From an uncultured Parafilimonas sp. (GTDB lineage: Bacteria; Bacteroidota; Bacteroidia; Chitinophagales; Chitinophagaceae), in NCBI GenBank assembly GCA_903882935.1, contig CAIRZB010000108.1, positions 1 through 64,000 on the forward strand: a DNA stretch of 64,000 bases. The letters are read 5' to 3'. The position numbers were made by a program, and so were the translations under genes. Below, piece by piece: positions 2,936 to 16,508 of this stretch. Every line of letters begins with the position of its first letter. Positions within the stretch are counted from its first letter, which is position 1. The notes under the pieces are model-generated. The model searched no databases, was not told the origin of the DNA, and was given only the letters and a program-made list of their open reading frames with translations.

Positions 2936-3727
2936 TTGGGTATGAAGAAATACATGTACTTGCTTTTGGTGCTGACTGGCTTGGGTTGCGGCGGCACAAA
3001 GCAGCAAGAGCCTATTAACGTTGCTGGAGCTTACAATATGCTAACGCAAACCTTTGGCGGCAGCGTGCTTGACACTACCTTTACCCAACACAGGCAGCTA
3101 AAGCTTTATACGGGCAGGTTTATGATGTATGTTCGGTTAAGCCCTGCCGACTCCCTCTCCTCCTTTGGTGTGGGCACATACACGGTTAGCGGAGACAAGC
3201 TGGTTGAAAATATTTTGTACAGCGCGGCAGACACCATTGCCATTAAAACCCCTGACAGCGACACCATTAAAGTTACCACAACCGACCAGGGTATGGAACA
3301 AGCCCGCCCAAAAATTAGGAGCGACAAAGGTGATATTAGCCTGAAAGAAATTTACCAACGTGTTGACACGGCCGTGCTTAGCCCCATTGACGGGTGTTGG
3401 AAACAAATTAGCGGTTACAGTGTAAAAGGCACCGACACGGTACGCTGGGCCGATGTGCAATACAAAGCTTTTTTTGCAGGTAACTTTGCATTTGGCAATG
3501 TTGAAACGGATAAGCATGGCATAACGCACGCAGGCATTAGTTACGGCACCTTTACCATGGCGGGCAGCACCGTTAATGAAACTATTACGGCCAGCACCTG
3601 GGCAGCATTGAACGGCCAGCACTTTTCGGTGGAGATAACTGTAAACAGCCCCGATACTTTTACGCAAACCATACTGCAAAGTGATGGCACCAAAGAAGTG
3701 CTGATGTACGAAAGGTTGAAGGAGTAA
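2936..3727 (+). CDS. Hypothetical lipoprotein
   Basis: A 263-residue protein with a short signal peptide and a lipobox (LTGLGC, Cys near residue 18) followed by a polar linker, so it should be a lipid-anchored envelope protein. The start may be the second Met, two codons downstream. The body is rich in Thr, Asp and beta-strand-like alternation, with two similar halves (each has a Y-T/F-x-G-D/N strand pattern) that resemble lipocalin-like proteins of Bacteroidota. No catalytic motif is seen and the function is unknown. Confidence 0.65.
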   Translation: MGMKKYMYLLLVLTGLGCGGTKQQEPINVAGAYNMLTQTFGGSVLDTTFTQHRQLKLYTGRFMMYVRLSPADSLSSFGVGTYTVSGDKLVENILYSAADTIAIKTPDSDTIKVTTTDQGMEQARPKIRSDKGDISLKEIYQRVDTAVLSPIDGCWKQISGYSVKGTDTVRWADVQYKAFFAGNFAFGNVETDKHGITHAGISYGTFTMAGSTVNETITASTWAALNGQHFSVEITVNSPDTFTQTILQSDGTKEVLMYERLKE

Positions 3728-3818
3728 GAAGTATGTTTATTGCATAATTTTTTTGGGGCAGCTTGCCTTAAATGCCCAAAGTAAAATATGGTTACTTTGC
3801 AGCCTTAAACATACGCTA

Positions 3819-5105
3819 TTGGCATTCCTAAAATTTACAGCAGATAAAATTTTTACCGGCACCACCATGCTGGGGCAAGGCAATGTATTAATTACTGATG
3901 AAACCGGCATTATAGAGTCTATCGTCCCTACTTCCGAGGCTGGGGATGGTATACAATATTACGCCGGCATACTGTCCCCCGGATTCATTAACAGCCATTG
4001 CCATTTGGAGCTAAGCCACATGAAAGGGCTGATACCCGAAAAAACCGGGCTGGTTGATTTTGTGATAGCCGTAATGCAAAAGCGGGGCTTACCGCAAGAG
4101 GCCATATTGGATGCCATTGCCAACGCAGAAGCCGAAATGCTGCAAAACGGCATTGTGGCCGTGGGCGATATTTGCAATACTGCCAATACATTGGCGCAAA
4201 AGCAACAAGGCAACTTGGCTTATTACAATTTTATCGAGGCCTCCGGTTTTGTACCGGCGTTTGCTGAAACACGGTTTAAGCAAGCCGAGGACACGTTTAA
4301 GCAATTCGTGAACCGTGAAACGGGAAATGTGAATCGCGAAACGTCAACCGTCAACCGTCAATCAGCGGCATCATTCACGTTTCACGATTCATCATTCACG
4401 TTTCACGATTCACGTTTCACGTCCATCGTTCCCCACGCGCCATATTCCACCTCGTTGGCATTGATGCAGCGCATCAACCAGCACTCCGCCGGTAAGGTGG
4501 TTACCATACACAACCAAGAAACTAAGGAAGAAAACAACTTTTTTGTTACCGGCGAAAGTGAGTTTAGAAAGCTATTTGCCCTTTTCAACATCAATATTGA
4601 TTTTTACCGGCCCAGCGGCAATACCAGCCTGCAAACTTATTTGCCCTTTTTAAACAACGCTGCCAGCCTGCTACTGGTACACAATACGTTTACGTCAGCG
4701 GAAGATGTGGAGTTCGTGAAACGTGAAACGGCAAACGTGAATAGTCAACCTGCTCCTTCATTCACCATTCACGATTCACGTTTCACGTTCTGCCTTTGCC
4801 CCAACGCCAACCTGTACATTGAAAACGCCCTGCCGCCGGCAGATATGCTGCGGGCGCAAAATGCCCATATTGTGCTGGGCACAGACAGTCTGGCCAGCAA
4901 CCATGCCCTAAGTATATTGGGTGAAGTAAATACGTTGCGAAAGCATTTTCCAAACATACCAACTGCGGAGCTGTTGCAATGGGCCACACTTAACGGAGCC
5001 AATGCTCTGCAAATGGATAGCTGGCTGGGCAGTTTTCACCAAGGCAAACAACCTGGCGTGTTGTGTATTGGCAACAATTTAGAGGCCGTAAAAAGGCTAT
5101 TATAA
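3819..5105 (+). CDS. Amidohydrolase-family deaminase with two in-frame palindromic inserts
   Basis: The product belongs to the metal-dependent amidohydrolase superfamily (S-adenosylhomocysteine/methylthioadenosine deaminase-like). Metal-binding motifs are NSHCHLELSH near the N-terminus, VPHAPYS, VTIHNQE, and LGTDSLASN near the C-terminus, with the typical CPNANLYI before it. A TTG start at 3819 is preferred because the family N-terminus begins at LKFTADKIFTG; the frame is open to a TTG at 3753. Two stretches rich in N-R-E-T and F-T-F-H-D (4305-4424 and 4711-4790) interrupt otherwise conserved sequence and are coded by inverted repeats. The protein may still fold if they form surface loops. 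The natural substrate cannot be told. Confidence 0.75.
   Translation: MAFLKFTADKIFTGTTMLGQGNVLITDETGIIESIVPTSEAGDGIQYYAGILSPGFINSHCHLELSHMKGLIPEKTGLVDFVIAVMQKRGLPQEAILDAIANAEAEMLQNGIVAVGDICNTANTLAQKQQGNLAYYNFIEASGFVPAFAETRFKQAEDTFKQFVNRETGNVNRETSTVNRQSAASFTFHDSSFTFHDSRFTSIVPHAPYSTSLALMQRINQHSAGKVVTIHNQETKEENNFFVTGESEFRKLFALFNINIDFYRPSGNTSLQTYLPFLNNAASLLLVHNTFTSAEDVEFVKRETANVNSQPAPSFTIHDSRFTFCLCPNANLYIENALPPADMLRAQNAHIVLGTDSLASNHALSILGEVNTLRKHFPNIPTAELLQWATLNGANALQMDSWLGSFHQGKQPGVLCIGNNLEAVKRLL
4305..4424. repeat. In-frame palindromic repeat inside the amidohydrolase gene, copy 1
   Basis: The left arm holds reiterated CGTGAAACG-like units and the right arm reiterated TTCACGTTTCACG units, which are their reverse complement, so the RNA can fold into a long hairpin. 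It adds about 40 codons between FKQF and TSIVPHAPYS. Length is compatible with frame retention and no stop is created. Confidence 0.75.
4711..4790. repeat. In-frame palindromic repeat inside the amidohydrolase gene, copy 2
   Basis: A second copy of the same repeat family: CGTGAAACGTGAAACGG on the left and ATTCACGATTCACGTTTCACG-type units on the right. It inserts about 27 codons just before the conserved FCLCPNANLYI. Both copies keep the reading frame. Confidence 0.75.
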
Positions 5106-5235
5106 AATAGCAACAGGCTTCAGGGTGGGCTGTAATTACCCGCTGCTATTTTTTTTAAAAGGTTCGCGTAGTGTTTTAATCTGTTACATCCTCTAAATCA
5201 CCTGCCTGTAATGGAGGCCTTTGGCAAATCCCCGT

Positions 5236-5243
5236 TATCTTTG
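5236..5243 (+). promoter_or_regulatory. Bacteroidota-type -7 box upstream of asnS
   Basis: TATCTTTG matches the TAnnTTTG consensus and lies about 50 bases before the asnS ATG. A -33 element at the expected distance is not clear. Confidence 0.45.
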
Positions 5244-5294
5244 CGTCCCCGCTTTTTGGGGTATTGTACCATTGTACACACTAATTTGTAAGAG

Positions 5295-6734
5295 ATGTTT
5301 AACAAACGCACAAAAATTAAAGCCCTGCTTGCCAGCGAGCAAACAGGTATTGATGTAACGGTTATGGGCTGGGTACGCAGTTTTCGCAACAGCCAGTTTA
5401 TAGCCTTAAACGATGGCAGCACCAACAACAATATACAGGTAGTGGCCGAGCTGGGCTTGCTTGACGAAGCCACCCTTAAAAGGATAAACCCCGGTGCATC
5501 CTTAAAAGTTACCGGACAATTGATTGAATCGCCCGCCAAGGGCCAAAAGGTGGAAATAAAAGCAACCTCCGTGGAAATTTTGGGCGACTGCGACCCGGAA
5601 AAATACCCACTGCAACTAAAAAACAGGCCTACGTTGGAATTTTTACGGGAGAAGGCGCACCTGCGTTTCCGCACCAGCACATTTGGGGCTATTTTCCGCG
5701 TAAGGCATTCGCTGGCATTTGCCGTACACAAGTTTTTTAACGACAAAGGCTTTTTGTACCTGCACACTCCCATCATTACCTCCAGCGATGCGGAAGGTGC
5801 GGGTGAAATGTTCCGTGTAACAACGCTGCCTTTTGACAAAACGCCGCGCAAAGAAGACGGCACCGTTGACTTTGCCGAGGACTTTTTTGGCAAAAGCACC
5901 AACCTTACCGTTAGCGGCCAGTTGGAGGGCGAGCTTGGTGCCACCGCCTTTAGCGATATTTATACATTTGGGCCCACCTTCCGCGCCGAAAACTCCAACA
6001 CAACCCGCCACTTGGCCGAGTTTTGGATGATTGAGCCGGAAATGGCATTTTATGATATTCAGGACAATATGGACCTGGCGGAAGAGTTCATCCGGTACAT
6101 TATTAAATACGCGATGGACAACAACCGCGAAGACCTAGAATTTTTGGCCCAGCGGCTGGTGGAAGAAGAAAAAGCCCTGCCTGCAGACAAACGCAGTGAG
6201 CTTGGCCTTATAGAAAAATTGGAGTTTGTGGTAAACAACGGTTTTGAACGCATTACCTATACCGAGGCCATTGATATTTTGCTACAAAGCCCGGCATATA
6301 AAAAGAAAAAATTCCAGTACCCGGTTAGTTGGGGCATTGACTTGCAGAGCGAGCATGAGCGCTACTTGGTGGAGAAACATTTTAAAAAGCCGGTGATTGT
6401 AACAGGTTACCCCAAGGCAATTAAGGCGTTTTATATGCGCCAGAACGACGACGGAAAAACCGTTGCCGCCATGGACATTCTGGCACCCGGTATTGGTGAA
6501 ATTGTGGGCGGCAGCCAGCGTGAGGAAAGGCTTGAAAAGCTGGAACAACGCATGGCCGAAATGAACATACCCACGCATGAGATGGATTGGTACTTGGACA
6601 CACGGCGCTTTGGCACGGTACCACATGCCGGCTTTGGCCTGGGCTTTGAGCGCATGGTATTGTTTGTAACCGGCATGACCAACATACGCGATGTGATTGC
6701 CTTTGCCCGAACACCCAAGAATTGCGAGTTTTAG
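5295..6734 (+). CDS. asnS: Asparaginyl-tRNA synthetase
   Basis: The product, 479 residues, charges tRNA-Asn with asparagine in the cytoplasm. The N-terminal OB-fold anticodon-binding domain (about residues 10-105) contains [18 protein letters not shown]. The class II catalytic core follows, with motif 2 around [21 protein letters not shown] and motif 3 [10 protein letters not shown] near the C-terminus. Length and motifs match bacterial AsnRS, and the [12 protein letters not shown] segment favours AsnRS over AspRS. It is transcribed alone and is followed about 310 bases later by tRNA-Phe. Confidence 0.95.
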
Positions 6735-15599: not shown

Positions 15600-16508
15600 T
15601 TAAAACCCTGCCTGAATAATCAACCCGCATAATTTGGCAGGGTTTTTTACATTGAAATAGGGAGGTGACACACTCGTATCAATACAATAATTAGCATTCG
15701 CACCGCCTGTGCCTTGCGTGGGTGGATAATAAAAATCTTCAGGATGGCCGTTTGAAATACCAACGGGTATTATGCGGCTTGAGGGTGTAAAGGGCAGTGT
15801 ATTACTGTAACTAAGCTGGTTGCTGCCGGTTTTTGTGAATATATAATCAGCATCGGCAGGTGAAAAATTATTTGAGAAATCCGTTCCTCCCATACTTCCC
15901 CAAGCATTAGTAAAACCCGTGACGCCTGAACGATAATAATTATTACCATTCCACCCTACCGCTATAATACCCGTGCCATCATTTTTTGCAGCGGGCATGC
16001 TTCCTGTATAACCACCCGTATAAGAAGCAAATTCACCTATATAACCTGCTGACTGCAACTCGCTCCAGAAATTTTGAGCTTCATAAGACGGGATTCCCGA
16101 AGATCCATACCAAGTAAATGTGCCATAATTATCAACTGGCAAATTATCATAACTATATGCATTCCCATAGGGGAAAAACGCTGTAATCAAACCATTGCCA
16201 TTGCCGTTATAAGCAAAGCCAAAGCTTGTGGCATTTGCACAATCACCAGGCAGACACGCATATTTGTTTCTAAACGTATTTACGGCAGTATTATATTTTT
16301 CAAGCTGCGAAACAAACGCTCTGTTTTCCGCAATTCTTATTAAATTTTGCCCGACCAATATCCCGCCGACGATAAGGCCAATGATAACGAGAACGATTGA
16401 CATTTCTATGAGGGTGAAGCCTGCTTTCAGGCGCAGCTTGCTCATTGAGTTGAGTTGAGTTGAGTTGAGTTTTTCATACGAGGCAACTATAAACAACGGT
16501 TTTTTCAA
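15600..16508 (-). CDS. Prepilin-like protein 1 (divergent), with SSR at its 5' end
   Basis: The N-terminal class III signal is KAG|FTLIEMSIVLVIIG, with Glu5 of the mature protein and a hydrophobic helix, so a prepilin peptidase would cut after Gly. The body is the most divergent of the six: it has CLPGDC where others have YLPGD, a Gly/Tyr-rich centre, and ends LCGLIIQAGF rather than NCALSFKFQ. Two starts are possible: ATG at 16508 (36-residue leader through the repeat) or ATG at 16445, giving a normal short leader MSKLRLKAG, with the pentanucleotide array directly upstream. The 3' end overlaps a GC-rich hairpin (AAAACCCTGCC arms) that may be its terminator. Confidence 0.75.
   Translation of the reverse strand: MKKPLFIVASYEKLNSTQLNSMSKLRLKAGFTLIEMSIVLVIIGLIVGGILVGQNLIRIAENRAFVSQLEKYNTAVNTFRNKYACLPGDCANATSFGFAYNGNGNGLITAFFPYGNAYSYDNLPVDNYGTFTWYGSSGIPSYEAQNFWSELQSAGYIGEFASYTGGYTGSMPAAKNDGTGIIAVGWNGNNYYRSGVTGFTNAWGSMGGTDFSNNFSPADADYIFTKTGSNQLSYSNTLPFTPSSRIIPVGISNGHPEDFYYPPTQGTGGANANYCIDTSVSPPYFNVKNPAKLCGLIIQAGF
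16445..16469. repeat. Pentanucleotide array TTGAG x5 at the start of prepilin gene 1
   Basis: Five perfect tandem copies of TTGAG (CTCAA on the coding strand) immediately precede or overlap the likely ATG. The related prepilin gene ending at 17997 has a single CTCAA at the equivalent place. Change in copy number would shift the frame of the longer leader or alter spacing before the short start. Confidence 0.85.

Follow-up and report, generated by a model that had tools for sequence, protein, structure and literature searches.

In-frame inserts in an amidohydrolase gene of an uncultured Parafilimonas belong to a dispersed family of heptanucleotide arrays

Nucleotides 3819 to 5105 of the window (the whole 64,000-nucleotide stretch of DNA that was analysed) hold a gene of the amidohydrolase superfamily that contains two repetitive inserts. 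Homologue alignments span approximately from the TTG at 3819 to the stop codon at 5105. The product matches Pfam PF01979 (E = 4e-27); the best NCBIfam model is for an aminofutalosine deaminase family, with a match below the cut-off of that model. Among solved structures, the closest are amidohydrolases, with aminofutalosine and adenosine-type deaminases among them. The protein was matched in 46 of 59 genomes (own genome counted), and the named relatives of the gene are Bacteroidota MAGs, with Filimonas and Arachidicoccus among the closest, in agreement with the Bacteroidota host named by the first-pass annotation. The features of the locus are as follows.

3819..5105, plus strand: amidohydrolase-superfamily gene, 428 aa, start TTG; host of inserts A and B
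4306-4422: insert A (whole), facing forward and reverse heptamer arrays
4306..4363, plus strand: insert A forward arm, GTGAACC GTGAAAC GGGAAAT GTGAATC GCGAAAC GTCAACC GTCAACC GTCAATC; segment score 32.2; TRF period 7
4373..4422, minus strand: insert A reverse arm, GTTTCAC/GATTCAC units; segment score 41.6; TRF periods 7 and 21; pairs with the forward arm
4308..4421, plus strand: insert A coding extent, 38 codons, residues 164-201, VNRETGNVNRETSTVNRQSAASFTFHDSSFTFHDSRFT; between F163 and SIVPHAP
4714-4789: insert B (whole), facing forward and reverse heptamer arrays
4714..4748, plus strand: insert B forward arm; segment score 22.6
4760..4789, minus strand: insert B reverse arm; segment score 25.4
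4719..4790, plus strand: insert B coding extent, 24 codons, residues 301-324, KRETANVNSQPAPSFTIHDSRFTF; between V300 and CLCPNAN

Both inserts consist of a forward array of the heptamer GTGAAWC, a short loop and then a reverse array of GWTTCAC. The first-pass annotation had described them as hairpin-forming repeats that keep the frame and lie at joints between conserved motifs, and all of this was borne out: the frame is read through 38 and 24 codons, and inserts A and B stand directly 5' of the motifs SIVPHAPYS and CLCPNANLYIE, respectively. The RNA minimum free energy is −47.7 for 4300-4430 (insert A) and −28.8 for 4710-4795 (insert B), and folding of the inserts was better than that of all 200 shuffles (z = −5.7 and −5.05). 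When the window was searched for CGTGAAACGTGAA with up to two mismatches, 14 places were found, every one of them within insert A or B, compared to 1.1 in shuffled sequences (sd 0.94, max 4). These matches and the hairpin z-scores exclude a chance origin. Two further properties had gone unmentioned: the period is 7 throughout both inserts, and the forward arms deviate from the unit at the positions of in-frame TGA. The two inserts share 77% of their nucleotides over 74 nt, in register. They are paired facing arrays of one heptamer, rather than copies of a discrete element with a conserved body.

In an AlphaFold2 model of the protein (alignment 7 rows, mean pLDDT 73.3, pTM 0.76), each insert falls in the stretch joining a helix to the strand that follows (H146-177 to E201-205 for A; H294-308 to E322-326 for B). 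In barrel enzymes of this superfamily, helix-to-strand loops are on the face opposite the active site. Predicted order is low in both inserts, with pLDDT < 50 at residues 168-197 and 311-319, although an alignment as thin as 7 rows would also be expected to give low values. Each insert peptide would be a disordered linker that leaves the enzyme largely or wholly unaffected.

The repeat is widespread in the genome. The exact sequence GTGAAACGTGAA was found in 81 places (some overlapping), compared to 1 for the reversed control, and GTGAAWCGTGAAWCG with up to two mismatches was found in 677 places, compared to 37 for the control. Besides the main unit, GTGAAWC, the family includes the variants GGGAAWC, GTCAAWC and GGCAAWC. 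To survey clusters, we used 1.264 Mb, comprising long parts of seven contigs and the window; as the contigs were chosen for length among those already showing the repeat, the density of clusters is somewhat biased upward. This sample contained 30 segments in 25 clusters, versus 4 segments, at or just over the threshold, in the reversed sequence. Eight of the 25 clusters lie deep within open frames (ispG twice, gcvP, hisS, aroA, asnB and the amidohydrolase gene twice), or 6 of 23 if the window, chosen for its inserts, is left out. The other 17 support the earlier suggestion that the repeat occurs mostly between genes, with gene classes here resting on longest open frames rather than annotation. 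One of the 17 (C100:45192) lies 26 nt into an open frame, but is probably upstream of the true gene start. The densest of the fetched sites (L096:11783-12984, corresponding to G000:C98 ~56.6-57.8 kb) extends over ~1.2 kb and contains reverse arrays as well as a forward array of 295 nt.

In all three genomes of the genus, tandem repeats are most numerous at period 7, with units that are partly different. In our sample, TRF reported 0, 29 and 14 arrays of period 6, 7 and 8, the next largest classes being periods 14 (19 arrays) and 15 (15 arrays). The corresponding numbers were 1, 17 and 2 in one congener (G001; next, period 12 with 11) and 0, 27 and 6 in the other (G002; next, period 14 with 10). 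A stricter lag test gave 18 clusters at lag 7 versus 0-3 at the other lags between 5 and 11 in our sample, 5 versus 0 in G001, and 5 versus 1-2 in G002. A repeat of another kind is found elsewhere in the window, at 16445-16471, where 5.4 perfect copies of TTGAG lie close to the 5' terminus of an open frame on the minus strand (15600-16508). The N-terminus of the predicted product is type IV pilin-like by eye, and the pentamer is possibly phase-variable.

Given this dispersal, the idea that the inserts are ordinary protein segments, repetitive by accident, is scarcely credible. Although the loops of orthologues are variable at both insert places, as that idea would have it, the identical DNA repeat occurs outside genes and in unrelated genes, and the genome-wide repeat by itself refutes it. 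Nor was the GTGAAWC insert seen in any of 27 other-genus orthologues of the amidohydrolase, so the outcome that the first-pass annotation had singled out as fatal to its proposal, the same sequence as normal protein of other genera, was not observed.

Stretches fetched for the repeat add further coding arrays, in valS, an E1 dehydrogenase gene, tilS (twice) and a NadR-like gene, bringing the total to 13 array clusters in 10 genes. Two of these arrays have units of higher order. The valS insert (L062:4008-4280) contains a 30-nt unit (10 codons, VKRETGNGNG) in five near-copies, a repeat of frame length, and the array of the E1 gene has a 42-nt (14-codon) unit. In tilS (L094), ~four copies of a different heptamer family, CCATAGT, are coded 5' of the TTCACGA array at site 1; its complement, ACTATGG, ranks among the top three period-7 units of the G002 sample, with 4 arrays each. 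Repeats are hard to assemble, and the assembly is in 114 contigs, which raises the question of an assembly or binning artefact. We give this next to no credence: the open frames continue through all 13 clusters, and two separately assembled congeners have arrays at the same places.

Read in the forward direction, the unit contains TGA, and its treatment depends on frame. Counting slots by frame in eight genes (asnB and aroA left out), we found TGA in 0 of 29 in-frame slots of forward arms, compared to 38 of 74 slots in other frames (Fisher P = 1e-7). In-frame TGA is replaced by GGGAAAC, GTCAATC and GGCAAAC, variants that are common in arrays elsewhere. Because an open frame forces the zero, this number shows that the arrays are read as coding sequence and says nothing on how they arrived. 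The informative point is that about half of the other-frame slots keep TGA. Reverse arms in the same genes have TGA in 46 of 72 slots, and arrays outside the eight genes (including a few at gene starts) have TGA in 397 and GGA in 97 of 666 slots.

The placement of arrays follows rules of strand and order. We examined 76 segments in a non-redundant 1.488 Mb (partly fetched for the repeat), relative to open frames of ≥100 codons. Arrays start within 25 nt 3' of a stop codon in 23 of 76 cases in the sense orientation versus 1 of 76 in antisense (P = 3e-6), though shadow frames underlie a few of the 23 (one, 25 nt from its stop in tilS, is intragenic) and the antisense case lies inside aroA. The cleaner count is that for starts 0-6 nt 3' of the stop, 18 of 76 in sense and 0 in antisense. 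Where neighbours of opposite orientation are <150 nt apart, the order is forward-then-reverse in 11 of 11 cases (P = 0.001), with the purine-rich arm first. In a relative with the unit AGTGAAA (G010), the listing likewise showed, by eye, 5 pairs closer than ~150 nt, all plus-then-minus. The array pattern of G010 has 65 matches versus 47 for the reversed control, but it is near-identical when read backwards, which makes this control uninformative.

Such regularity after stop codons makes function at gene ends the strongest rival explanation, in which the arrays are under selection as protein-binding sites or as signals at 3' ends or in mRNA, the coding copies being the ones that landed in genes. 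The 18 versus 0 count, the fixed forward-to-reverse order and the stable hairpins are all as expected for such elements, and heptamers of Xanthomonas are reported to favour the 50 bp past the stop in sense or the region before the start in antisense (PMC4692102). What argues against this explanation is that the unit is not constant among congeners (site A, and tilS of G002), and that G-quadruplexes, the proposal made for Xanthomonas, are impossible for most units here, given the predominance of TGA over GGA slots. Rfam matched no family in 3700-5300, and a likeness to ParB sites leads nowhere. GTGAAAC is half of the ParB parS consensus, but facing pairs run the opposite way, and GTTTCACGTGAAAC (up to two mismatches) occurs once in the genome, at C4:30314, with two mismatches and on a contig without a listed array match; the ParB reading was therefore dropped. 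We regard function as an unlikely account of the family as a whole, but the after-stop regularity (mostly 0-6 nt, sense) exceeds what mutation and loose selection need, and some arrays may serve a function there.

We then compared the insert sites across an alignment of 30 of the 46 matched proteins: our own, the two congeners and 27 from other genera. At site A, both congeners carry a palindrome of a different heptamer, AGTKAAA, within the same protein-alignment borders, with minimum free energies of −22.5 and −40.3 kcal/mol in G001 and G002 (−45.7 for our genome). At site B, G001 has an array of GTCAATC, a variant also common in our genome, and G002 has a longer loop with no detectable period. 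Other genera occasionally have arrays of their own: TTCAAAA in G025 and ATTCAAC in G017, ~four copies each, at site A, and CGGCAGT in G006 at site B. The lag-7 test was positive for 4 of 29 orthologues at A and 2 of 29 at B, while lags 5, 6, 8, 9 and 10 marked none of the 29 and three control stretches were also negative.

Eight sites could be compared with congeners: A, B, ispG 1 and 2, tilS 1 and 2, hisS and aroA, with arrays scored by eye where the lag test was not applied. An array was present in 6 of 12 congener orthologues and missing from the other 6. In half of the arrays the unit is another one (site A in both congeners and tilS 1 in G002), and the remaining three keep the unit family of our genome (site B, ispG 1 and tilS 1, all in G001), indicating that inheritance without rewriting also occurs. 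The hisS array is absent in G002 and the aroA array in G001, pointing to lineage-specific gain. None of 10 other genera has the valS array, and valS itself had no match in G001 or G002; for gcvP, asnB and the NadR-like gene, no match was found in the sampled stretches of the congeners, and the search for the E1 gene covered those same stretches. The 12 comparisons and the absence of the valS array elsewhere show that some sites are old, some of these have been rewritten, and others are new. In aroA of G001 (L271), the loop matching our array contains a different palindromic stretch, TCTCCCCTAAAGGGGGAGATTTAGAGGGG, so this loop may collect several kinds of repeat.

Palindromy, dispersal and in-frame positions within conserved genes, together with the 77% identity between A and B, could also reflect a palindromic element that is mobile, as in the Rickettsia (RPE) or MITE/REP kinds, and inserts copies, in frame if tolerated. 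Y1 (RAYT-type) transposase matches, moreover, number 5 in our genome, 8 in G001 and 6 in G002, placing the genus above most other genomes of the family (0-8), and one of our Y1 genes is ~0.4 kb from an array. Nevertheless, the other 4 of 5 Y1 genes have no exact repeat match within 10 kb. Among the 59 genomes searched with Y1_Tnp, own included, G010 has many arrays and no Y1 match, and G005 has 60 exact matches and a single weak one (E = 8e-5), which rejects a RAYT transposase as a necessary driver. The six palindromic coding copies range from 76 to 273 nt, and by eye their loops and lengths have nothing in common beyond the heptamer. In many copies the array is direct and has no opposing arm, and congeners have other units at some shared sites. 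We consider a mobile element clearly improbable.

Taken together, these data favour the view, to which we assign a probability of roughly 0.6, that the inserts belong, as coding copies, to a genome-wide family of heptanucleotide arrays, generated by 7-nt slippage and fold-back copying and filtered by selection. Slippage or duplication, fold-back copying and selective filtering we infer, the first from one assembly per species rather than from reads, and fold-back from arm order by itself. Arrays would lengthen by slippage or duplication of 7 nt, and the 30-nt unit of valS and the 42-nt unit of the E1 gene would represent growth in frame lengths. The second arm would be a copy of a purine-rich 3' end made after that end has folded back, and the invariable lead of the purine-rich arm would follow from this. 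Many arrays would persist directly 3' of stop codons. Within genes, persistence would require a loop that tolerates the insert (here, one leading from helix to strand in the barrel), a frame-preserving length and, in place of in-frame TGA, variants that arrays elsewhere already commonly contain.

A bolder proposition, which we think quite improbable, is that sites rather than sequences are inherited, with a family-wide process growing, and sometimes rewriting, 7-nt arrays of fixed strand polarity. The purine-rich strand would be on the sense side right after stops and would lead in every facing pair; one possible route is that purine-rich ends are extended or copied where untranslated purine-rich RNA pairs with its template. 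If this were true, the unit would have been swapped wholesale between sister species at some loops (3 of 6 congener arrays), and essential enzymes would repeatedly receive new disordered linkers.

Heptamer arrays, reported as mainly intergenic, here also supply housekeeping enzymes with new in-frame peptide. Among the open-licence papers searched, no title or abstract dealt with heptamer arrays within essential Bacteroidota genes. A rule now exists for the bases that have to change, and sister species provide a natural comparison. This opens two questions to testing: the route by which essential proteins acquire new linkers, and the reason for a unit of seven. For annotators, peptides such as VNRETGNVNRE, FTIHDSR and SEKLKVKSEEL are translated repeats, not domains.

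The first-pass annotation had likened the inserts to the palindromic elements of Rickettsia. Passages of the reviews PMC10969869 and PMC2229807 describe RPEs as discrete families of ~105-150 bp, conserved in sequence and in the encoded peptide and bearing terminal repeats, found in frame in conserved enzymes and also between genes. What stands is that both are in-frame palindromes within genes. A conserved body and loop are absent here; the copies (76-273 nt) have loops unrelated by eye and consist of a 7-nt tandem unit, terms in which those passages do not describe RPEs. RPEs have a terminal inverted repeat of ~12 bp; our arrays end in heptamer units, beyond which no terminal sequence was seen by eye. 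With direct arrays lacking a second arm, another heptamer at site A of the congeners and a host outside Rickettsia, going by the gene's named relatives, the likeness is one of effect, and the inserts fall outside the sequence definition of an RPE. REPs, according to passages of PMC3733652, are 20-40 bp long, bear a tetranucleotide tag (GTAG or CGTC) and are tied to RAYT transposases. They too are dispersed palindromes, some of them genic, including same-site copies in Xanthomonas recB, but the association with Y1 genes fails here (1 of 5 near an exact repeat match), even though the genus is Y1-rich. PARCEL coding palindromes, a 25-residue motif (PMC2996958), are unlike heptamer arrays and were set aside.

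Closer parallels are found among heptameric tandem repeats (the LSSR class), which have in common with ours a 7-nt tandem unit and dispersed loci mostly outside genes. TAACTGA heptamers occur in Beggiatoaceae, Cyanobacteria and five Bacteroidetes (MacGregor 2015, PMC4679880; extracts), and 7-nt slippage was proposed for heptamers by Mrazek 2007, as cited there. Like our unit, their forward form carries stops in all three frames, and there are occasional genic copies. In these extracts, however, TAACTGA repeats are mostly right before start codons, with one indirect repeat, and their coding copies are chiefly at protein ends, the internal ones being reversed; coding forward arms with altered stops are not among the copies described. 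The GGGAATC heptamers of Xanthomonas (Rehm 2015, PMC4692102) are the other close parallel. GGGAATC is itself a variant here, and both systems have heterogeneous, dispersed arrays on the sense, stop-codon side of genes and close convergent pairs (70 and 75 cases in Xanthomonas; 11 of 11 opposite neighbours under 150 nt here). Reportedly, 83% of the Xanthomonas heptamers have the same gene context in two species, and 7-11% at least partly overlap genes. The arrays described here differ from that form in that the main unit, GTGAAWC, would lack the G-tracts of a quadruplex, as judged from slot composition, in that 8 of 25 clusters are deep in open frames, and in that some congeners have another unit in the same loop. 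In kind, the family described here is a variant, coding and hairpin-forming, of heptameric repeats already reported in Xanthomonas and cyanobacteria.
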